DNA from: Desulfovibrio sp. ZJ369
GTDB lineage: Bacteria; Desulfobacterota; Desulfovibrionia; Desulfovibrionales; Desulfovibrionaceae
Length of the DNA stretch: 64,000 nt
Direction: 5' to 3'
Assembly: GCF_011039085.1 (NCBI RefSeq)
Contig: NZ_JAAKEI010000001.1
Coordinates: 1 to 64,000 of the forward strand
Part shown: positions 1,987-53,223 of the stretch, in pieces
Numbering within the stretch: the first letter of the stretch is position 1
Layout of the letters: each line of letters begins with the position of its first letter
Made by a program: the position numbers and the translations under genes
The notes under the pieces: model-generated
What the model saw: only the letters and a program-made list of their open reading frames with translations
Told to the model about the DNA's origin: nothing
The model's database searches: none

Positions 1987-2931
1987 GCTTGCCTCCTTGC
2001 GTGTTGCATCGTTCATGGGGCGGGCATCCCCGAACGCCTTTTTGACTTCCCCGGCCACAGCCTTGCCCAGCGCGGCGTGGTTTTCCGGCGTGAGATGGAT
2101 TTCATCCGGTTCTTCGGCGAAGGGGACCACGCTTGCCGCATCGAAAAAGGCGGCTCCGGCGGCTTCGGCCAGCGGGCGGAGGAGGCCGGGGAGGGCTTCG
2201 CTTTTGGCGAGGGAACCTTCAAAAAAGGTTTTATAGGCGCTTTGTTGAATATCCAGCTTTGGCGGGCAGATTACGAGCGCCCGGGGAGCGGGAAAGCGCG
2301 TGCGCTGCTGCCACTCGCCCCCGGTGACGATGGCGGCGAGCGCCGCCACGCCTGACGCGATGTCCGCGGCGCTGCGATTGCGATCCTTGCGCAGGTCATT
2401 GGTCCCCAACATGATGATGACCATATCAAGCGGCATATGCGAAGAGAGCGCCGCCGGAAGATATGCGGCCCCGTTCATGCCCGCGCCCGGAATGACGCCC
2501 GTGCCGGATCGCGCGGGGCTGTCGAGGGCGGTGGTGCGCCCGCTCAGCCCCTCGACCACCACCTCGTACTCAGGCCCCAGCCGTTCGGCCATCCTGCCGG
2601 GCCAGGTCACATGCAGAGGCAAACGCCCCACCACTCCCTGCGCGTCCTCGAAATAGAGCATTTTGCTTTTGAAATTATTCAATTTCAAAAGCGGCGCTGC
2701 CATCATTTCGCCTGAAAAACGCGGTTTTCAGGCTCATTCGGCGCGGGCGTCCGCTCCCGCGGCCGCCAGAGCGGTTGCCGTTTCCAACAGCAAACCGCTC
2801 TAGCCGAACGTGTTGGAATCGCCGAATACCAGAATGCGCTTCTTCGCGTCGGCGGCGACGGCGACGGCGGCGGCGCATCCTGCAAAGAGGACAAGCCACA
2901 TTGCGGCCATCAGTTTTGCCCGTGTTATCAT
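1987..2931 (-). pseudogene. SGNH/GDSL hydrolase (arylesterase-like), interrupted by a miniature element
   Basis: The 5' piece (2931 to about 2801) encodes a signal peptide or lipoprotein-like leader (MAAMWLVLFAGC) followed by ILVFGDSNTFG, the block I Ser motif of SGNH hydrolases. The frame then hits TAG inside a 145-bp TA-flanked element (2656-2800). On the other side it resumes as YFEDAQGVVGR, VEGLSGRTT and IIMLGTNDLR (block III), ending with the D-x-x-H block as DEIHLTPENH. Deleting the element and one TA rejoins GDSNTFG to YFED in frame, so the ancestral gene coded a secreted esterase or arylesterase of about 220 residues. As it stands the nucleophile serine is cut from the rest, so I call it inactivated. 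Confidence 0.85.
2656..2800. mobile_element. GAGC-type TA-flanked miniature element, full length, copy 1
   Basis: 145 bp, bounded by TA at 2654-2655 and 2801-2802. The left end is a hairpin with arms GCTTTTGAAATT and AATTTCAAAAGC. The centre holds a stem GCCTGAAAA with TTTTCAGGC and the family marker CTGCCATCATTTCG. The right end is a second hairpin built on GAGCGGTTTGC. It interrupts the SGNH hydrolase gene, and the single TA left after removal restores the frame, which identifies TA as the duplicated target. No coding capacity. Confidence 0.88.
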
Positions 2932-3054
2932 CTCTCCCCGTCATATCGTTGAAAGTTGCCTGAATCTGCATCCCCGCCTTGCTTCAGGAGATGGATATTT
3001 TCAATCAAAAAATGCTCCAGGGACGATGCTCACTTCATCCGATATGGTTTGAGC

Positions 3055-3813
3055 TCAGGAATCCTGCAGGACGGCGTTGACGCAGCCGAGGGCGTTCAGG
3101 GTGCGGGGGAAGCCGATGTAGGGCAGCATCTGGGCCAGCGCATCAATGAGGTTCTGTTTGCTGTTGCCCATATTCACATTGCCCTGCACATGGGCCTTGA
3201 CCTGCGCCTCGCAGCCGCCCAATGCGCTGATGATGGAAAAGGTCAGCAGTTCGCGGGTTTTCAGATCAAGCGCCTTGCGCGTGTAGATGTCCCCGAAGCA
3301 GAAGGCGGAAAGGTAATTCACCTTGATGTCCTTCTGTCCTGCGGGAGCCGTTGCGTGCATCTTGTCGATAACGTCTCCGAAGATGGCTTTCTGAGTGGCC
3401 AGCCCGTCCTGAAAGCGGCTCGCTTCCGTCACCGTGGCCTGGCTCTCCACCGGAAGGGTGATGCCTTTTTCGCTAAAAACGTCATTGACCAGACGCACCG
3501 CGCTTTCCGTTTTGGGAAAACCGACGTAGGGCGCGCACTGATAGAGCGCCTCCTTGATTTCCGCCGGGCTGACGCCGACGCGAAGCGCGGCCTCCGTGTG
3601 CGCCCTGATGTCGGCAAGGGTCTGGCTGGCGGTCAGCGTCACCAGAGTGATGAGCATCCGCTGCCGGTCGTCGAGCGTGCCGCGTTCCGCGATTTCGCCA
3701 TAGACGAAACGGTCGCGCATGGCGGCGAGATCGGGATCGCTCTTCGTCAGAGCGGACGGCGTGTTACCCAAAAATTTTTGCCTGTTTTTTTCCGCCGTCA
3801 GCGATCTGTCCAT
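3055..3813 (-). CDS. Two-domain carboxymuconolactone decarboxylase-like protein
   Basis: A 252-residue protein with two tandem CMD/AhpD-fold repeats. The first spans about residues 25-115 (ending AEIKEALYQCAPYVGFPKT), the second about 135-245 (ending IDALAQMLPYIGFPRTLNA). The strict CxxC of AhpD is absent, so peroxidase-type activity is not indicated. Exported relatives are common beside cupins and flavodoxin-like reductases. Upstream, in frame, lies a convincing signal-peptide sequence (FFLAALTALSFLGNAPSAWA), but it can be joined to its own ATG at 3941 only if one T is added to a 7-T run. As sequenced, translation can start only at 3813, where a fair AAGGGAG precedes the ATG, and would give a cytoplasmic product. 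Confidence 0.75.
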   Translation of the reverse strand: MDRSLTAEKNRQKFLGNTPSALTKSDPDLAAMRDRFVYGEIAERGTLDDRQRMLITLVTLTASQTLADIRAHTEAALRVGVSPAEIKEALYQCAPYVGFPKTESAVRLVNDVFSEKGITLPVESQATVTEASRFQDGLATQKAIFGDVIDKMHATAPAGQKDIKVNYLSAFCFGDIYTRKALDLKTRELLTFSIISALGGCEAQVKAHVQGNVNMGNSKQNLIDALAQMLPYIGFPRTLNALGCVNAVLQDS

Positions 3814-3941
3814 AGCCTGAACTCCCTTTTCGGGCTGGGATTGGGCGGCCCACGCCGAAGGCGCGTTCCCCAGGAAAGAAAGCGCCGTCAGGGCCGCAAG
3901 GAAAAAAACTGAAAACGTAAGATGTGATCACCCTTCGCCAT
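3814..3941 (-). pseudogene. Frameshifted signal-peptide region of the CMD-like gene
   Basis: From the ATG at 3941, preceded by GGGAGGTG, translation gives MAKGDHILRFQFF and then leaves frame at a homopolymer of seven A on the plus strand (3902-3908). With eight, it would continue FLAALTALSFLG, then APSAWA|AQ, into the mature CMD protein. It is therefore either a one-base indel that has cost the protein its export signal, a slippage-prone on/off site, or a sequencing error in the homopolymer. Confidence 0.65.
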
Positions 3942-3974
3942 GAAACACCTCCCGAATCGCGGGGAATTCCTTTA

Positions 3975-4119
3975 GAGCGGTTTGCTGTTGAAAACGGCAA
4001 CCGCTCTGGCGGCCGCGGGAGCGGACGCCCGCGCCGAATGAGCCTGAAAACCACGCTTTTCAGGCGAAATGATGGCAGCGCCGCTTTTGAAATTGAATAA
4101 TTTCAAAAGCAAAATGCTC
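3975..4119. mobile_element. GAGC-type miniature element, full length, copy 2
   Basis: 145 bp, the same length as copy 1 and in the opposite orientation, flanked by TA at 3973-3974 and 4120-4121. Left hairpin arms are GCGGTTTGC with matching GCAACCGC. The central stem is GCCTGAAAA with TTTTCAGGC, and the right hairpin is GCTTTTGAAATT with AATTTCAAAAGC. It sits in the divergent promoter region between the CMD-like gene and the AraC-type regulator, where it could separate operator from promoter. Confidence 0.88.
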
Positions 4120-4311
4120 TATTCCGGTTTGGAAATGGAAAACGGCCACGCCGCATAAATGCAGAATAAGCCGGGCACGTCATGGATGACAGATATGTTT
4201 CTCGCAATTTATTGCCCAAAATTCCCAAAGGGCTTCCCGAAGAAAAAAGTTGTGGCAGGGTTTTCCCAAACAGAGATTGTATTCCAGCAGACAGGCAGGA
4301 GGTCAGACACG

Positions 4312-4542
4312 ATGACGGCTGTTGCTGACGACGAAAGGGAACGAATACGCGAGGAACTGAAAGAAATGTTTGAAGGCTTGACACTCTCGCGGCGTCAGGA
4401 GATCAACAAGGCCGACAGTTGCTTCGGCAAACCGTCAGTGGCGTTGGTTGTACAGGGAAGCAAATGCGCCGTGATCGGAGAGCGGGAATATCGGTACGCG
4501 GAAGGGCAGTATTGCAGGGGTGGATTTGCCGAGCGCGTTCCA
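4312..4542 (+). pseudogene. AraC-family regulator, truncated and frameshifted
   Basis: From an ATG with a good AGGAGG upstream, the frame encodes a short helical N-terminus and then FGKPSVALVVQGSKCAVIGE and YRYAEGQY. This is the ligand-binding cupin-like AraC_N domain, normally followed by G-V-D-L-P-S. The bases for GVDLPSAF are present, but in another frame, implying a small deletion near 4512. About 25 bases later the gene runs into a miniature element, so the DNA-binding HTH domains (about 200 residues) are missing entirely. Divergent orientation to the CMD/cupin/reductase cluster suggests it once controlled that cluster. Confidence 0.75.
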
Positions 4543-4752
4543 GAGCGTTTTGCTCATGAAATGAGCTGAACGCTCTGGCGACAGCGTTAGAGCATTTTTT
4601 CTTTGAAAATGCTCTGCTGACGCGAAAGCGGCAGCCGCCGCAACGCGGCGTACATTCAGGCGAAAACCGCGTTTTTCGCCTGAATGCCACCTTTGACTTT
4701 CATAAAAAGTCAAAGGTAATCTGCTCTAGGTAACTTCATAAGCAAAACGCTC
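4543..4752. mobile_element. GAGC-type element with a second copy nested inside
   Basis: The outer copy begins GAGCGTTTTGCTCATG and ends AAGCAAAACGCTC-TA at 4753-4754. Within it, at TA 4588-4589 and 4727-4728, lies a complete inner copy (4590-4726, 137 bp). The inner copy has its own terminal hairpins (GAGCATTTT with AAAATGCTC; ACCTTTGACTTT with AAAGTCAAAGGT) and a central stem ATTCAGGCGAAAA with TTTTTCGCCTGAAT. The left outer flank is CA instead of TA. The right outer end supplies the G of the dapB TAG stop codon. Confidence 0.8.
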
Positions 4753-5531
4753 TAAAACATGTCCTGCATGCCGTAAAGCCTGCCGGGTTTGCGCGTCGCC
4801 AACCAGGCGGCGGCCCGCAGAGCGCCCTGGGCAAAGGTTTCGCGCGAGTGGGCCTGATGGCTGACCTCAATGCGCTCGCCCGGCCCCATGAAGTAGACGG
4901 TATGCACGCCCACCACGTCCCCGCCGCGCACAGCCTGGATGCCGATCTGCGCCCTGGGGCGTTCGCCGATAATGCCATCCCGGCCGGAGCAGCGCACATC
5001 CCCAAGCTCCCAGCCTCGCGCCCTGGCCAGACATTCGCCCAGGGTCAGAGCCGTGCCGCTGGGCGCATCCTTTTTGCGGTTATGGTGCAGCTCAACCATT
5101 TCAATATCATAGCTCTCGCCCAGGGCGCGCGTCAGCTCCGGCAGAATTTTCAGGAGCACATTGACGCCGATGCTCATGTTGGAAGACCAGAAAAGCGGCG
5201 ATTTGGCAGCTAAGGCGCGCAATTCTCCCATCTGGGCTTCAGTGAAACCGGTCGTGCCGATGACCAAAGCATGACCGGCGCGGGCCGCGCTGCGGGCCGA
5301 CTCCAGGCTCACGGCAGGAGCTGTAAAGTCGATGATCACCGCGCCCGGAGCCTGCGGAAGAATTTCCTCCAGCGTGGCGGCAACAGGACAATCCGCCCCG
5401 GCCAGACCAGCCAGATGATCCTTGTCGTCCACCAGACCGGCCAGCCTGTAAGCCGGATCTGCGGCCGCCAGAGTGCTGATGGTCCTGCCCATGCGTCCGG
5501 CGGCCCCCACCACGATGATGGCTGTGCTCAT
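4752..5531 (-). CDS. dapB: 4-hydroxy-tetrahydrodipicolinate reductase
   Basis: 259 residues, normal for DapB. It reduces 4-hydroxy-tetrahydrodipicolinate with NAD(P)H in the lysine and meso-diaminopimelate pathway, in the cytoplasm. Visible features are the N-terminal dinucleotide loop VVGAAGRMG (about 7-15), GTTGF in the middle, the catalytic ELHHNRKKDAPSGTA (about 147-161) with general acid His and substrate-binding Lys, and the C-terminal YGMQDMF. The gene starts 4 bases after the ligA stop, so the two are translated from one message. Its TAG stop is formed by the TA target and first G of the adjacent miniature element. Confidence 0.95.
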   Translation of the reverse strand: MSTAIIVVGAAGRMGRTISTLAAADPAYRLAGLVDDKDHLAGLAGADCPVAATLEEILPQAPGAVIIDFTAPAVSLESARSAARAGHALVIGTTGFTEAQMGELRALAAKSPLFWSSNMSIGVNVLLKILPELTRALGESYDIEMVELHHNRKKDAPSGTALTLGECLARARGWELGDVRCSGRDGIIGERPRAQIGIQAVRGGDVVGVHTVYFMGPGERIEVSHQAHSRETFAQGALRAAAWLATRKPGRLYGMQDMF

Positions 5532-21615: not shown

Positions 21616-21869
21616 TAGCGTTTCCTGTCTTCGCGTGTGCCGCACTTCATATTCCTAATAATACATTGAAATAATACAAGTATTTTTACCATAGCCTACG
21701 AGATTTTTCCTGGCGGCATGGCATGCATCTTGAAAAAAGAAAAATATCACACGAATAGTGCAATGCTGCGATGTCGAGCAAGGCACAGTGCGCGGCAAGG
21801 AGAAGCAACTTTTACGCAAAGAGTCTGCCTGTAAAGCGCTCGACCGGAAAATACGGCGAACCTTGCCGA
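21616..21869. other. AT-rich intergenic stretch
   Basis: No gene seen. The part around 21640-21700 is the most AT-rich of the neighbourhood and may host promoter or nucleoid-protein sites for either divergent gene. A partial sigma-54-like match (TGGCATG-CATC-TTGAA) on the plus strand near 21717 lacks the conserved C of the -12 box. Confidence 0.35.
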
Positions 21870-22014
21870 GAGCGTTTTGCTAATGAAATTAGCTAAACGC
21901 TCTGGCGGCCGCGGGAGCGGACGCCCGCGCCGAATGAGCGTCCAGACCGCGTTCTGGACGCGAAATGATGGCAGCGAAGTGATTGAAAATGAATATTTTC
22001 AATCAAAAATTGCC
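21870..22014. mobile_element. GAGC-type miniature element, full length
   Basis: 145 bp: left hairpin GAGCGTTTTGCTAAT with ATTAGCTAAACGCTC, central stem GCGTCCAGA with TCTGGACGC, marker GAAATGATGGCAGCG, and right hairpin GATTGAAAAT with ATTTTCAATC. The right flank is TA and the left is GA. The central stem sequence differs completely from copies 1 and 2 yet pairs perfectly. Confidence 0.85.
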
Positions 22015-22045
22015 TAGGGTCAGCCGAGCGAAAAAACATACTGTG

Positions 22046-36342: not shown

Positions 36343-36429
36343 CTTGCCTCATGACGTGAAAAGGCCAGCGCGCACCATCTTCCGTCCGGGCAACAGGGGC
36401 GGCCGCCTGCGTTGCCCCGGCCGCATTTA

Positions 36430-36577
36430 GAGCGTTTTGCTAATGAAATTAGCTAAACGCTCTGGCGACAGCGTTAGCTGGCGCCCGCGCCGAATGAGCG
36501 TCCAGACCGCGTTCTGGACGCGAAATGATGGCAGCGAAGTGATTGAAAATGGATATTTTCAATCAAAAAAAATACTC
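36430..36577. mobile_element. GAGC-type miniature element, full length, directly before the ispE ribosome site
   Basis: 148 bp with TA at 36428-36429 and 36578-36579. Left hairpin GCTAAT with ATTAGC, central stem GCGTCCAGA with TCTGGACGC, right hairpin GATTGAAAAT with ATTTTCAATC. The TA at the right end is the beginning of TAAGGA, the Shine-Dalgarno of ispE, so the right hairpin ends within about 15 bases of the start codon. It replaces most of the hslV-ispE spacer. Confidence 0.87.
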
Positions 36578-36591
36578 TAAGGAATCAGCCC

Positions 36592-39506: not shown

Positions 39507-39582
39507 GCAGATTACCTTTGAGATTGTATAATCTTAGAGCATTTTTTGATTGAACATATTCATTTTCAATCAAAAAATGCTC
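39507..39582. mobile_element. GAGC-type end hairpins without the central module
   Basis: 39537-39582 is a 46-bp hairpin, GAGCATTTTTTGATTGAA with the matching end TTTTCAATCAAAAAATGCTC, bounded by TA at 39535-39536 and 39583-39584. It equals the right end of full-length copies. In front of it, GAGCAGATTACCTTTGAG resembles the other end type. It sits immediately upstream of the hydrolase gene. Confidence 0.75.
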
Positions 39583-39601
39583 TAGGGTAGTATGCATTGC
39601 C

Positions 39602-40501: not shown

Positions 40502-41123
40502 CGGCATAGTGGTCGGGCTGGGCAACCCCGGTCCGCGTTACCAGGGCACCCGCCACAACTGCGGCTTTGCCCTGGTCTCGGCGCTGGTGCAGGAAGCGGA
40601 ACGCGAAGGTCAGGTCACGGAATGCAATGGCGGCAAATTTTCCTGTGAACTCTGGCGGCTGCGCCTGCCCCGCCTGAAAGGCGCCTGGCTTGCGGCCAGG
40701 CCGCTGACATTCATGAATCTGAGCGGGCAATGCGTGCAGCCCTTGCTGGCATGGCACAAGCTCACGCCGAATCAGCTTCTTGTGGTCCACGATGAACTTG
40801 ACATCCCGGCCGGGGAACTGCGCTTCAAGCTGGGCGGCGGCAATGCGGGGCATAATGGACTCAAATCCATCACCGAACTGCTCGGCACCCCGGATTTTTA
40901 CCGCCTGCGCATTGGCATCGGCCGCCCTCAGCACAAGGGAAATGTGCTTAACTGGGTACTCGGCCGGCCTGATGCCGAGGATGCCGAACATTTGCGAGAA
41001 GCCATGCCCAAAGCGCTTGAGACCCTGTTCGTTTTTGCCGACAAAGGCCTGGAGGCCGCAATGCGACAGGCGCGCGGCGCTGCGCCCCGCAAAAAAGCGG
41101 AACAGCCGGGCAAGAGCAAATAG
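40491..41123 (+). CDS. pth: Peptidyl-tRNA hydrolase
   Basis: 210 residues. Recycles peptidyl-tRNA. VVGLGNPGPRYQGTRHNCGF carries Asn and the catalytic His at about 26, PLTFMNLSG the second Asn, and VHDELDIPAGELRFK, GGNAGHNGLKSI and FYRLRIGIGRP complete the site. The start at 40491 (GGAAGGTGC upstream) was preferred to the longer frame. The C-terminus KKAEQPGKSK is basic. Its TAG stop consists of the TA target and first G of the adjoining element. Confidence 0.95.
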   Translation: MEYSGIVVGLGNPGPRYQGTRHNCGFALVSALVQEAEREGQVTECNGGKFSCELWRLRLPRLKGAWLAARPLTFMNLSGQCVQPLLAWHKLTPNQLLVVHDELDIPAGELRFKLGGGNAGHNGLKSITELLGTPDFYRLRIGIGRPQHKGNVLNWVLGRPDAEDAEHLREAMPKALETLFVFADKGLEAAMRQARGAAPRKKAEQPGKSK

Positions 41124-41410
41124 AGCATTTTGCTTTTGAAATTATTCAATTTCAAAAGCGGCGCTGCCATCATTTCGCGTCCAGGCTTCAGCCGTTGCGA
41201 CGAAGGAAGCTACGGATGGAGACAGCAATTAGTTACCACAAAAAACATGCAACGAAACCGCTGTCGCCATCCGTAAGGCTCGCAGACTCGCCAACGGCTG
41301 GCGCAAGCAAGCAAAGCTTGCTAACGGCTACCGCAACGCGGTCTGGACGCTCATTCGGCGCGGGCGTCCGCTCCCGCGGCCGCCAGAGCAATTTCAAAGT
41401 GAAATTGCTC
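41123..41410. mobile_element. GAGC-type miniature element, expanded 288-bp form
   Basis: Bounded by TA at 41121-41122 and 41411-41412. The termini are GAGCATTTTGCTTTTG and CAAAGTGAAATTGCTC, and both family core blocks are present (CTGCCATCATTTCGCG near the left; GCGGTCTGGACGCTCATTC and CGGGCGTCCGCTCCCG near the right). Between the arms GCGTCCAG and TCTGGACGC about 135 extra bases are inserted. They contain their own inverted repeat (TACGGATGG-AGACAGC with GCTGTCG-CCATCCGTA). Confidence 0.75.
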
Positions 41411-41412
41411 TA

Positions 41413-44360: not shown

Positions 44361-44402
44361 GCGTTTATGATAACATAACAAAATTATTGCACTTACTAGT
44401 TA
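44361..44402. repeat. 44-base repeat, copy 2
   Basis: GCGTTTATGATAACATAAC followed by AAAATTATTGCACTTACT, differing at about six positions from 22158-22201. It starts 14 bases after the rho stop and its last TA is the left flank of a 33-bp GAGC-type hairpin. Confidence 0.55.
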
Positions 44403-44435
44403 GAGCGTTTTGCTAATGGAATTAGCAAAACGCTC
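44403..44435. mobile_element. Minimal GAGC-type element (33-bp palindrome)
   Basis: GAGCGTTTTGCTAAT, three loop bases, then ATTAGCAAAACGCTC, a perfect palindrome flanked by TA at 44401-44402 and 44436-44437. It equals one terminal hairpin of the full-length form, so a single end exists as an independent unit. Confidence 0.8.
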
Positions 44436-44449
44436 TACTATCGTAAAAT

Positions 44450-46077: not shown

Positions 46078-46349
46078 ATCCTCCGGCCGCGGGGCAGGGG
46101 CGTCCGATTCGGGGTAGCCGGATCAGCTGCTTGCAGCACATCAGAGATTTTTTGCCGTACCAAGGAGAGAGTACACGCCGTCTCCCCTGAAGACAAGAAC
46201 GGCCCAAAGCCGCGGGGGAACGCACAGGGGCGGCGCAAAAAGCGAAAGGCCCTGAAATCCCTGCCCGCACAAGAAATGAAGCATTGATCTGCCTTGAAAA
46301 CCCGGATATGAATAAAAATTCAACTGCACGACATATTCCGGCTTTTTTA
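46078..46349. other. Intergenic stretch between prmA and the methyltransferase gene
   Basis: No gene seen. It must contain the leftward promoter of prmA and the rightward promoter of the methyltransferase-YcaO pair, but I recognise no clear -35/-10 pair. It ends in a GAGC-type element. Confidence 0.35.
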
Positions 46350-46496
46350 GAGCGGTTTGCTAATGAAATCAGCTAAACCGCTCTGGCGGCCGCGGGAGCG
46401 GACGCCCGCGCCGAGTGAGCGTCCAGACCGCGTTCTGGACGCGAAATGATGGCAGCGCAGTGATTGAAAATGGATATTTTCAATCAAAAAATGCTC
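46350..46496. mobile_element. GAGC-type miniature element, full length, directly before the methyltransferase ribosome site
   Basis: 147 bp between TA 46348-46349 and 46497-46498. Left hairpin GAGCGGTTTGCTAATG with ATCAGCTAAACCGCTC, central stem GCGTCCAGA with TCTGGACGC, right hairpin GATTGAAAAT with ATTTTCAATC. The right TA is the start of TAAGGA, the Shine-Dalgarno of the next gene, just as at ispE. Confidence 0.87.
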
Positions 46497-46508
46497 TAAG
46501 GAAGCACC

Positions 46509-47228
46509 ATGGCGCAGACGGAAGATCTCGACACACTTCTCGCCGCTATCCGGCGCACCTTTGACGTGGATTTCGAGCCCTTGCAGGTGGATGGCGACAC
46601 GTTGCAGGTTCTGACCATCCACAATATGCAGGCGCATCTGGACAAGCTGCTGCATAGACGCGCCATACGCAATCCGCTTAAGGATTTGCCGCTCTGGGCC
46701 AAGGTCTGGCCCGCTTCTTTCGTGCTCGGCCGGCTGCTGCGCAACTATGAGCCGGAGGGGAAAAGCCTGCTGGAGCTGGGAGCGGGCTGCGGCATTTTGA
46801 GCCTGATCGCCGCGCGCTACGGATTTTCGCGCATTGTTCTCAGCGATGTGCAGGAAGACGCGTTGCGTTTTGCCAGGGCCAATGTGTTGCGCAATCATCT
46901 GGATGATCGCGTGGACGTCTGCCATGTGGATGTGACCGCGCCCGGCAGGGACCCGCGCTTCAGCCCGATGTTTGATCGGATCGCCGCTTCCGAGATCCTT
47001 TACCTGGACGAGCTTCACGGGCCTTTGCTGAAATTCACGGCCCGTCACCTGGCCCCCGGCGGCAAGGCTCTGTTCTGCACGGACATGGCCCGCGCCAAAC
47101 CGCATTTCGCCAAACTGGCGGCCAAATCCTTCAGGGTCACGGAAGGCCGCGTGGGCGTCAAAAGCCGGGACGAGGAAGGCCGGGAGCAACGCCGCCTGTA
47201 CACTGTTTTGATCCTGGAGCGTCCATGA
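46509..47228 (+). CDS. Class I SAM-dependent methyltransferase paired with YcaO
   Basis: 239 residues. SAM site LLELGAGCGILSLIAARYG (about 87-105), acidic loop in LSDVQEDAL and ASEILYLDELHGPLLK after the fourth strand, as in the METTL21/PrmA-like protein methyltransferases. An N-terminal region (about 1-60) with LLHRRAIRNPLKDLPLWAKVWPA resembles the entry of protein-lysine methyltransferases. Its stop overlaps the ATG of the YcaO gene by 4 bases, so the two products are made together, probably for sequential modification of one protein. That role is an inference. Confidence 0.78.
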   Translation: MAQTEDLDTLLAAIRRTFDVDFEPLQVDGDTLQVLTIHNMQAHLDKLLHRRAIRNPLKDLPLWAKVWPASFVLGRLLRNYEPEGKSLLELGAGCGILSLIAARYGFSRIVLSDVQEDALRFARANVLRNHLDDRVDVCHVDVTAPGRDPRFSPMFDRIAASEILYLDELHGPLLKFTARHLAPGGKALFCTDMARAKPHFAKLAAKSFRVTEGRVGVKSRDEEGREQRRLYTVLILERP

Positions 47229-48979
47229 GCCGGAATACGCCAAAAATTCGCCTCCGTTCCTGTCCCAAAGCGTACACCAGGGATCTGGACAAAGCCGTCA
47301 GCCCGGTGCAAACCATCAGCCGAGTGCAACAACGGCTGGCAGCCGCGGATCTGGACATTCTGGCGCAAACCCGCCGCGTGGACGCGGGACGGCTGGGCAT
47401 TCCCGTCTATCTGAGCGTTTGCGGCGCGGACGCGCGCGCGATCATGCCCACCCGCAAACAGATGGGCAAGGGCTCCTCGCCGGAACAGGCCCAGGCCTCG
47501 GCGCTCATGGAGCTGATGGAGCGCTTTGCGTTTTTCAGCTTCTGGCAGGAGCGGCCGCATATGATCCGCGCCACCTGGAGCCAGGCCGAAGCCCGCTTCG
47601 GCAAGGATCTGCTGCCCCTGGAGGCCATGCTGCGCTCGGTGGACGATCCGCTTGGCCTGCCACAGGCCCGGCGGGTGCTCGATCTCGCGTCCTGGCTTTT
47701 TTATCCGGCCACCCACCTGCAAAGCGGCCGCACCGTATGGCTGCCCCTGGACTGGTTCAAGCTGCTCAGCGAGTTCAACGGCACCTCGGCGGGCAACAGC
47801 GCGGAAGAATCGCTTTTGCAGGGCTTGAGCGAACTGGTTGAGCGGCATGTGTGCTGCCGGGTGGATCGCGAGCGCCTGCGCACGCCGACCATTGACACGG
47901 CAAGCGTGACGGATCCCGCGCTGGGGGATTTGCTGCGGGCATTTGAACGTGAAGGCATCCGGCTGATTCTCAAGGATTTTTCCCTGGGCATGCCCCTGCC
48001 CACAGTGGCGGCTCTGGCCTGGGATCCGGCCACCTTCCCTCAAAGCTCGGAAATCGTCTTTACCGCGGGCACGGCCTCCTCTCCGGCCAAAGCCGCCATC
48101 CGCGCTGTCACCGAAGTGGCCCAGCTGGCCGGGGATTTCTGCACCAATGCCTGTTACGAGGCCTCCGGGCTTCCCAAGTTCAGCCGCCTGGAAGAAACCG
48201 CCTGGCTTCTGGACGGGCCGAAAGCAGCGCTGACGGATCTGCCCGGCGTGGAAGACGAGGATATCTGCCGCGAGTTGCAGGCCGCCCTGCGCGGCCTTGC
48301 GCCTCTGGAAGTCTATGCCGTGGAAACCACGCATCCGCGTCTGGGCATACCGGCCCATTATTGCATGGCTCCCGGCCTGGCCTTCCGGGAACGGGACCGC
48401 AACCAGAGCCTGGGGCTTTTCGTGGGCCGAAAACTGGCTGAAGAGGCGGATGCCAGGGAAGCCGCGGCCGGCCTGAACGTCCTGGAAGAATGTTATCCGC
48501 AGGCGCATTTTCTGCCCTTTTTCCGGGGCATGCTGGCCTTGCGGGCCCAACAGTGGGACGCCGCGCGCGAGCTGTTCAACACGGCCCTGCCCTTGCAGCC
48601 CGATGCCGACTCCGCGGCTCTGGCCGCTTTTTACGCCGGCTATGTCGACACCCTGCAAGAGCGCTGGCAGGAAGCGTTGCCCGCCCTGGCCCATGCCGTC
48701 GAACTCTGCCCTGAGATGAAAGAATACGGCAATCTGCTGGGCGTGGCGCGCTTCAAGACCGGGCGCTACGCCGAGGCGGCCGAGGCCTTTGCGGCTGTGC
48801 TCAAAGTGGATAAGGGCTCGGCCCTGGATCTGGCCAATCTGGGCCTCTGCCATAAATTCCTGGGGCAGAAAGAGGAAGCCGCGCGGCACTTGCAGGCCGC
48901 GCTGGAGATTGATCCCTCCCTGGACTTTGCCCGCCGCCACCTGCAGGAATTAGAGCGTTCTGCTGATGAAATCAGCTAA
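47225..48979 (+). CDS. YcaO-domain protein with C-terminal TPR repeats
   Basis: 584 residues. YcaO domain (about 15-400): MPTRKQMGKGSSPEQAQASA, ALMELMERFAFFSFW and SAEESLLQGLSELVERHVC carry the E-x-x-x-E/R ATP-binding residues, then TASSPAKAAIRAVTEVAQL. YcaO enzymes phosphorylate backbone amides to make azolines, amidines or thioamides. No TfuA, cyclodehydratase E1-like partner or precursor peptide is nearby. TPRs fill about 415-575 and may bind the substrate. The last eight residues (ERSADEIS) and the TAA are supplied by a GAGC-type element inserted at a TA. Substrate unknown; a ribosomal or other housekeeping protein is my guess. Confidence 0.85.
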   Translation: MSRNTPKIRLRSCPKAYTRDLDKAVSPVQTISRVQQRLAAADLDILAQTRRVDAGRLGIPVYLSVCGADARAIMPTRKQMGKGSSPEQAQASALMELMERFAFFSFWQERPHMIRATWSQAEARFGKDLLPLEAMLRSVDDPLGLPQARRVLDLASWLFYPATHLQSGRTVWLPLDWFKLLSEFNGTSAGNSAEESLLQGLSELVERHVCCRVDRERLRTPTIDTASVTDPALGDLLRAFEREGIRLILKDFSLGMPLPTVAALAWDPATFPQSSEIVFTAGTASSPAKAAIRAVTEVAQLAGDFCTNACYEASGLPKFSRLEETAWLLDGPKAALTDLPGVEDEDICRELQAALRGLAPLEVYAVETTHPRLGIPAHYCMAPGLAFRERDRNQSLGLFVGRKLAEEADAREAAAGLNVLEECYPQAHFLPFFRGMLALRAQQWDAARELFNTALPLQPDADSAALAAFYAGYVDTLQERWQEALPALAHAVELCPEMKEYGNLLGVARFKTGRYAEAAEAFAAVLKVDKGSALDLANLGLCHKFLGQKEEAARHLQAALEIDPSLDFARRHLQELERSADEIS

Positions 48980-48986
48980 ACCGCTC
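48953..48986. mobile_element. Minimal GAGC-type hairpin inside the 3' end of the YcaO gene
   Basis: 34 bp, GAGCGTTCTGCTGATG with ATCAGCTAAACCGCTC, between TA 48951-48952 and 48987-48988. It encodes the last residues and stop codon of the YcaO protein. The stem shows GCTGAT/ATCAGC where other copies have GCTAAT/ATTAGC. Confidence 0.78.
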
Positions 48987-49066
48987 TAAGCCCGGAGCAG
49001 GCGTTTCAAAAGCACTATGCCTCTGTGAGAGGCGTGGCGGCCCAATGCCCCGGCAGGCAAAGCTGC

Positions 49067-53087: not shown

Positions 53088-53180
53088 GGCAGGGCGCGCC
53101 TGCCGCGCCCAAAGCCTGAGCGTGCAACCTCGCGCGCAAAGCAGGCCGACGGCTTTGCGCCCTGGGGTTAGCCCTCATTA

Positions 53181-53223
53181 GAGCGTTTTGCTAATGAAAT
53201 TAGCAAAACGCTCTAAAACGCTC
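53181..53223. mobile_element. Minimal GAGC-type hairpin plus partial second end
   Basis: 33-bp perfect palindrome GAGCGTTTTGCTAAT/ATTAGCAAAACGCTC between TA 53179-53180 and 53214-53215, followed by AAACGCTC-TA, the last bases of another copy. The final C and the TA (53223-53225) read TAG on the minus strand and are the stop codon of the glutamate synthase gene. Confidence 0.8.

Follow-up and report, generated by a model that had tools for sequence, protein, structure and literature searches.

A 145-bp MITE of a modular Desulfovibrio hairpin family, most likely moved by an IS630-type transposase, interrupts an SGNH-hydrolase/cupin gene at a TA

The closest known system to the element described here is RUP of the pneumococcus together with IS630-Spn1. 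RUP is described as 107 bp long, with 110 copies in one genome, a TA target and ends like those of a resident IS630 element; its mobilisation in trans by IS630-Spn1 has been proposed, and its insertions disrupt genes (PMC3049150, PMC2229807). BOX, also from the pneumococcus, is presented as modular and strongly folded, with 17 lone box modules (PMC3049150). The Chunjie MITE of Geobacter uraniireducens is termed recently active and is reported in 38 copies of 178-235 bp with conserved ends (PMC10969869), TIMEs (Tn3-derived inverted-repeat miniature elements) give rise to non-autonomous transposons of mosaic structure (PMC4133298), and hairpin MITEs with TATA ends and no known partner are described from Thiomargarita (PMC4853749). 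ISY100, an IS630/Tc1/mariner element, duplicates TA on insertion, its transposase is given as the only protein needed in vitro, and its minimal ends are put at a likely 24 bp (PMC2170065). Among the matches listed from open-access PMC, with subscription papers and ISfinder outside the scope, we found no paper on such a MITE family in Desulfovibrio; the one that combines Desulfovibrio, IS630 and MITE names Desulfovibrio a single time, as a possible horizontal-transfer partner of the fruit fly for a Tc1/mariner element (PMC7325037).

The window analysed here is a stretch of 64,000 nucleotides from Desulfovibrio sp. ZJ369. We consider it very probable that a non-autonomous MITE of 145 bp has inserted there by transposition, at a TA within a Tyr codon of an SGNH-hydrolase gene, thereby truncating that gene, and that a resident IS630-family transposase most likely mobilised it in trans. 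As with RUP, the target is TA, the ends are similar to those of a resident IS630 element and a gene is disrupted, a likeness drawn from the descriptions. The family resembles BOX in being modular and strongly folded and in having lone modules, and it resembles Chunjie, again by description, in being a multi-copy MITE with conserved ends and variation in size, Chunjie being the larger. In contrast, RUP is called simple (PMC3049150), whereas the Desulfovibrio family has four hairpins, reassorting variants, end hairpins that also occur solo, and members in many species of one genus; BOX is given a variable number of boxB modules and ISSpn2 as its proposed IS (PMC3049150), whereas the Desulfovibrio family has alternative versions of its hairpins and IS630-type end modules. 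TIMEs, as described, differ in their Tn3-family ends and their 5- or 6-bp duplications. A single insertion of this kind is ordinary; what makes it of interest is its membership of a modular hairpin family with a genus-wide spread.

The element occupies positions 2656-2800 on the minus strand, bounded by GAGC...GCTC, and one copy of the target TA stands on either side of it (2654-2655 and 2801-2802). The 5' fragment of the SGNH hydrolase gene (2803-2931, minus) starts at 2931 with a signal-peptide-like start, carries the GDSNTFG block and reads MITRAKLMAAMWLVLFAGCAAAVAVAADAKKRILVFGDSNTFG up to an in-frame TAG stop, which is formed by the second TA copy plus the first G of the element. On the far side of the element the same frame resumes with YFEDAQG and stays open to 1579; this 3' part (1579-2653, minus) contains the remaining GDSL/SGNH domain (PF13472, 1.5e-12), together with a cupin match that is weak, falling just under its Pfam cut-off (26.9 bits against 27.2). 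An ORF spanning 1579-2706 borrows its ATG from within the element, and since it has neither the GDS block nor the signal-peptide-like start, we take the gene as broken. The interrupted gene, cut off from both, is most likely a pseudogene.

The element is not a chance arrangement, because BLAST with the 148-bp unit gives at least 40 matches, full or partial, within its own genome, at identities of 89-100% (this count covers the 40 scored out of 355 first-look candidates). A structure model of the family raises the number of copies in this genome to at least 51. The unit is thus short, without a transposase gene and present in many copies, with terminal inverted repeats (GAGC...GCTC), a TA duplication and empty sites, all as in a MITE. 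Ungapped comparison of the window copy with 12 copies of the same length gives differences at 3-4 of 149 positions for seven of them, at 7-11 of 149 for four, and at 42 of 149 for one copy with other modules.

The initial annotation had proposed these element ends and this duplicated TA from the reading frame alone, and had expected an intact relative to read GDSNTFGYFED across a single TA. We searched the own genome and 60 relatives (61 genomes in all, E of at most 0.001), of which five gave a match: the own genome, the congener G017 and three others, whose matches of 22-46 bases (E 6e-4 to 1e-3) were taken as chance. The match in the congener G017 covers 618 bases of the gene at 75% identity (E 2e-119), and there the uninterrupted gene reads CATCCTCAACATAGCCAAAGG, with one TA, GDSNTFGYVEDAQG. 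The single TA was therefore as expected, while the residue that follows the tyrosine was not, being V in G017 and F in the window. When 145 bp and one TA are taken out of the window sequence, the joined flanks align to the G017 gene without a gap, which bears out the boundaries, the TA duplication and the in-frame rejoining.

That the insertion is recent, as had also been suggested, receives indirect support: the rest of the gene is still open and most of the copies compared are close to the window copy, so the window element may have moved not long ago. The downstream half of the gene shows 82 third-position differences over 200 codons against 41 at position 1 and 26 at position 2, a bias typical of constraint that mostly mirrors the time before insertion.

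It could be argued that the filled state is ancestral and that G017 lost the element by precise excision. Tc1/mariner-type elements are indeed capable of excision, yet they usually leave a footprint, and G017 keeps a complete GDS block and a signal-peptide-like start and has no member of the family (0 matches by BLAST and by the structure model). We therefore regard loss from G017 as extremely improbable and read it as an empty site. The G017 gene apparently leaves its frame further downstream, in the cupin part and far from the junction. A search of genome contigs with the protein of the gene kept 80 loci, which matched mainly in the cupin half; the SGNH half was seen in none of these 80 named loci or in one own stretch, with the G017 gene serving as positive control, and thus the empty site of this gene comes from one congener. 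A corresponding search of plasmids returned 79 records, of which the listed ones match within the cupin half (query 686-1074, about 69%) and miss the junction.

Two further pairs of filled and empty sites came from viral contigs found by the core pattern (three contigs). At the end of a phage structural gene, the element sits exactly within the stop codon in two viral contigs, L241 and L242, as well as in genome G024 (L140), the site reading ...CAAGCC TA[element]TA AAGG..., whereas L243, whose protein is 95% identical, is empty and reads CAAGCGTAAAAG. Because of this empty reading we can say that the element's own TAG took over from TAA and that the protein is unchanged; an element of this family can therefore supply stop codons to genes. 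In L244 the element splits a tyrosine codon of a restriction-endonuclease gene, and a relative in L245 (55% identical) is empty, reading ...RVIAYTKNHNLG...; plasmid relatives of the L244 gene are of the BPTD_3080 family of restriction endonucleases in eight of the ten rows listed. Both pairs show the TA duplication, and so does a nested case in which a MITE (L116:11328-11476) stands within the loop TA of a solo hairpin. A contig of the viral collection has a family copy that interrupts a restriction-endonuclease-like gene (L240:4351-4492). Searched with the element itself, the plasmid collection and the phage collection both gave no match. Blind joining of flanks at 101 candidate end pairs gave long open frames that arise by chance in GC-rich DNA and have no value as evidence.

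These duplications bear on another possible origin, namely that the elements are palindromes of the REP/RAYT or IS200/IS605 type, moved by single-strand transfer through a Y1 (HUH) transposase, with the TA incidental. Solo palindromes of 28-51 bp in the family do resemble REPs, and the own genome has four Y1_Tnp (PF01797) matches. Against this, TA is duplicated in three independent filled/empty pairs, a target duplication that to our knowledge IS200/IS605-type insertion does not produce and that is likewise foreign to REP/RAYT, and the ends of the element match an IS630-type IS. Because TA is duplicated, a Y1-borne origin is refuted for the MITE, and across the family as a whole we give it very little credence.

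The same genome holds nine PF13358 matches, and one multi-copy IS type of the IS630 group could be delimited in L011, at 998 bp including both TAs, with the left end TAGAGCATTTTCACTTTTATTT and a right end that reads inward as TAGAGCATTTTGCTTTTAACTTT or near it. The B end of the MITE is TAGAGCATTTTGCTTTTGAAATT and has 17 nt including the TA in common with the IS right end (TAGAGCATTTTGCTTTT), exactly in three of the seven IS right ends read (L012, L017, L018), with one base off in L010 and L011 and two in L013 and L016. The A end of the window copy (AGAGCGGTTTGCTG) is a poorer fit to the IS left end (AGAGCATTTTCACT) than is the B end to the right end, while that of some other MITEs (AGAGCAATTTCACTTT) is similar to it. 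The MITE thus has ends in common with a full IS630 element in its own genome, as would an IS630-derived element. In two other congeners the ends have changed along with those of the IS, because MITE A ends match the local IS there over 21 nt: G021 and G098 have transposases 55-56% identical to the IS630-type transposase of the own genome, the first 21 nt of the G021 MITEs L153 and L190 (TAGAGCGTTTCAACTTTGAAA) are common with the G021 IS left end, and those of the G098 MITE L187 (TAGAGCGTTTCACCTTTGAAA) with the G098 IS left end.

Searched with 170 aa of the transposase, the own genome gives 37 matching places; identity is 95-100% in 26, many of which are short pieces at contig ends. The sole full-length IS copy seen in this genome, L011, has a frame-shifting A8 tract and a TGA near its end. 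The A8 tract, also in L010, puts the halves of the transposase in different frames, whereas A7 (L012 and L214 of G024) keeps one frame; judging by sequence, this may reflect either slippage control or decay. G024 encodes an intact transposase of 310 aa with TA on both sides (L214:191-1123), which scores 196.5 bits on the NCBI IS630 model (an NCBIfam equivalog, cut-off 100) and has Sleeping Beauty as a remote PDB match (1.7e-6). Among the matches listed, transposase identity of at least 80% over at least 100 residues occurs only in G000 and G024, and these two also carry the best-matching MITEs.

From these comparisons we infer that an IS630-type transposase would bind the element and move it by transposition. 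The transposase of a resident IS630-family (Tc1/mariner-type) IS with the same TAGAGC ends would act in trans; the MITE would be cut at both ends and joined at a TA, which would thereby be duplicated; at this locus the TA of the Tyr codon in the SGNH-hydrolase/cupin gene would have served as target, leaving the gene truncated.

The family reaches well beyond this genome. A covariance model built from 18 aligned sequences of the own genome and G024 matches 49 of 79 genomes of the genus, the own included, and BLAST with the window copy finds 32 of the 79. Among 61 genomes drawn from the order, the model matches nine of the ten from the genus (own included) and none of the 51 others. Counts per genome are lower bounds at 39 in the genus set and at 51 in the order set, and weak matches fall to the strict filters. 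For a MITE family present, by the structure model, in 49 of 79 genomes of its genus, the analysis fixes the ends, the target and a likely partner. Its host, like Geobacter uraniireducens, belongs to the former Deltaproteobacteria.

The co-occurrence of MITEs and transposase agrees in G000 and G024, but across the 79 genomes there is no association. A PF13358 transposase occurs in 28 of the 79, namely in 7 of the 22 genomes with at least ten model hits and in 21 of the 57 others (Fisher p 0.80), and for 15 of the 22 MITE-rich genomes none was shown. G064 and G088, two congeners assembled as single contigs, have 37 and 34 model hits and no PF13358 match, and their MITEs are either orphans or moved by another transposase. 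The lack of a genus-wide association therefore means either that many lineages have lost the IS and keep their MITEs as relics, or that a different transposase acts there.

On the element strand, the family plan consists of an A hairpin, an S hairpin, a C hairpin within a short stem, and a B hairpin. The window copy reads A1, S1, C1-like and B1 along the minus strand (2656-2800), with the A1 end hairpin AGAGC...GCTCT at 2768-2801 and the B1 end, made of the hairpin at 2665-2692 and the outer end, at 2655-2692 (both minus). Further copies lie in the window: a second one of the same type (A1-S1-C1-B1) at 3973-4121 on the plus strand with TA on both sides; A2-S1-C2-B2 at 46348-46498 and A2-S2-C2-B2 at 36428-36579, both plus, with modules assigned by eye; a copy with decayed outer ends at 21868-22017 (plus); and A3-S1-C2-B1 with a diverged core insert of about 120 bp at 41121-41412 (minus). 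With a motif search limited to four possible 4-base starts of an end, TA was present on either side of 23 of 28 family copies (a 29th row, from L117, was dropped for its other core).

A census of modules covered 709 kb of own sequence, including 399 kb picked around hits, and classified 43 core places, 40 of them completely. The A and C modules combine as A1C1 (17), A2C2 (10), A3C2 (5), A1C2 (4), A2C1 (2) and A3C1 (2), and the S and B modules as S1B1 (30), S2B2 (7), S1B2 (2) and S2B1 (1); no C1, A1 or A3 with B2 was seen among the classified core places. Because blocks that differ at many positions occur in mixed combinations, copies have evidently exchanged modules, and the mosaicism would be due to recombination, gene conversion or gap repair. 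An extra insert of 120 bp is found at two alternative positions in the core with no evident target duplication (L113:13782-13901, L114:10916-11035, L118:2676-2795, L107:6828-6947, L116:12514-12633 and L110:9519-9638).

The fold of the family invites a different explanation, in which it is a conserved structured RNA, a regulatory or stability element of 3' ends that was spread by duplication, and the insertion is a by-product. The window copy folds with a z of -6.5. In a structure alignment of 18 elements from two genomes (14 own, 4 from G024), 98.3% of cells are paired, with two-sided changes in 20 of the 49 pairs. For four of five covariation measures none of 500 shuffles reaches the observed value, and for the fifth, further pair types, 11 of 500 do; sliding the pairing partner destroys the signal. 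These counts are not independent events, since the alignment also supplied the structure and linked changes occur within each module. The hairpin order recurs in ten elements from four other congeners, which have other sequence and show little variation, with two-sided changes in 5 of 51 pairs. Placement by a simple gene finder, which placed 64 of 66 strictly paired elements, also seems to favour an RNA: 22 lie between convergent genes, 37 between tandem and 5 between divergent ones, against 11, 37 and 16 expected from intergenic length (chi-square p 1e-4). Intragenic insertions could not be counted, because the gene finder splits broken genes, and the window element itself was scored tandem.

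Several observations speak against an RNA function, however. One-sided change cells such as G-U, counted from the alignment of 18, number 10 against 104 two-sided, and such a scarcity of intermediates fits correction of a DNA palindrome or block exchange better than selection on RNA. Both element strands fold. At the gathering threshold, Rfam matched only a tRNA in the window and nothing in the element, and its four matches in 2600-4800 are all below threshold (E 0.11-0.52). The placement fits purifying selection and a preference for TAR at stop codons equally well, and a structured RNA leaves the TA-flanked insertion into coding sequence unexplained. We thus consider the RNA explanation unlikely and retain that of a mobile DNA element.

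With regard to the target, the TA of the element is that of a predicted stop codon in 24 of the 66 strict elements. As proof of a preference for stop codons this coincidence is weakened by flanks away from stop codons, which share an R after the TA (73 of 84, compared with 27 of 30 at stop codons), so that a general YTAR preference covers much of it. Overall, R stands outward of the TA in 103 of 121 flanks in four length classes, against 40% at intergenic TA; for elements of at least 130 bp the figure is 70 of 83 flanks, and for the three solo classes it is 16 of 20, 8 of 8 and 9 of 10. The TA flanks of the strict set are there by construction, since TAGAGC was required, and the neighbouring base was free. 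A 4-bp YTAR duplication, the target duplication of IS5-like elements, was rejected: the outer bases differ between the two sides, and empty sites have a single TA. Strict elements number 10 in 246 kb without the window and 20 in 310 kb that include it.

The end modules also exist alone, as TA-flanked palindromes. The window has four with TA on both sides: a B2 palindrome of 50 bp (39535-39584), two A2 palindromes of 37 bp (44401-44437 and 53179-53215), and an A2-like one of 38 bp at the 3' end of a YcaO-like gene (48951-48988). The 66 strict elements include four solos of 28-29 bp, three of which are an A3-like palindrome with ATTTT for AATTT, ten of 36-38 bp (A1 and A2 types) and five of 50-51 bp (B1 and B2 types). 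The reassorting and the solo hairpins allow one to ask questions of how MITEs are assembled and of how short an IS630 substrate can be. As a tentative and rather doubtful proposal, palindromes of 28-51 bp, each an IS630-type end head-to-head with its own inverted copy, might be the smallest mobile units; pairs of them flanking a core would form the larger MITEs, modules would be swapped by transposition and gap repair, and hairpins would be kept perfect by arm-to-arm correction of the DNA and not by RNA function. In comparison, ISY100 is autonomous, and its likely minimal ends of 24 bp (PMC2170065) exceed both the 17-21 nt held in common here and half of a 28-38-bp solo hairpin.

At the YcaO-like gene (47225-48979), the solo hairpin provides the last residues and the stop codon. 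In the readable relatives ycaO stops at about this point, with different tails (ELED, QLEG twice, ELEEKQS, ELGD, ELAV and ELEGSAN), and by eye the congeners L225 and L227 have element-like sequence after the ycaO stop. An empty site of the solo with its TA was not found at the ycaO 3' end in the seven readable of 17 congeners, the right flank being unalignable.

A second family with TAGAGC ends, about 141 bp long, has a similar plan and a different core (window position 4588, L100:2737, L102:3321, L117:5371 and others). Its window copy measures 141 bp (4588-4728, plus); this length is shared by 16 of the 66 strict elements, which are candidate members of the second family. An element of the second family in L101 (3466-3632) abuts an IS630-type left end, so that its right flank is the IS end. 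At 4541-4754 of the window, nested TAGAGC elements stand immediately at the 3' end of dapB, whose TAG stop (4752-4754, minus) consists of the TA and the first G of a hairpin end.
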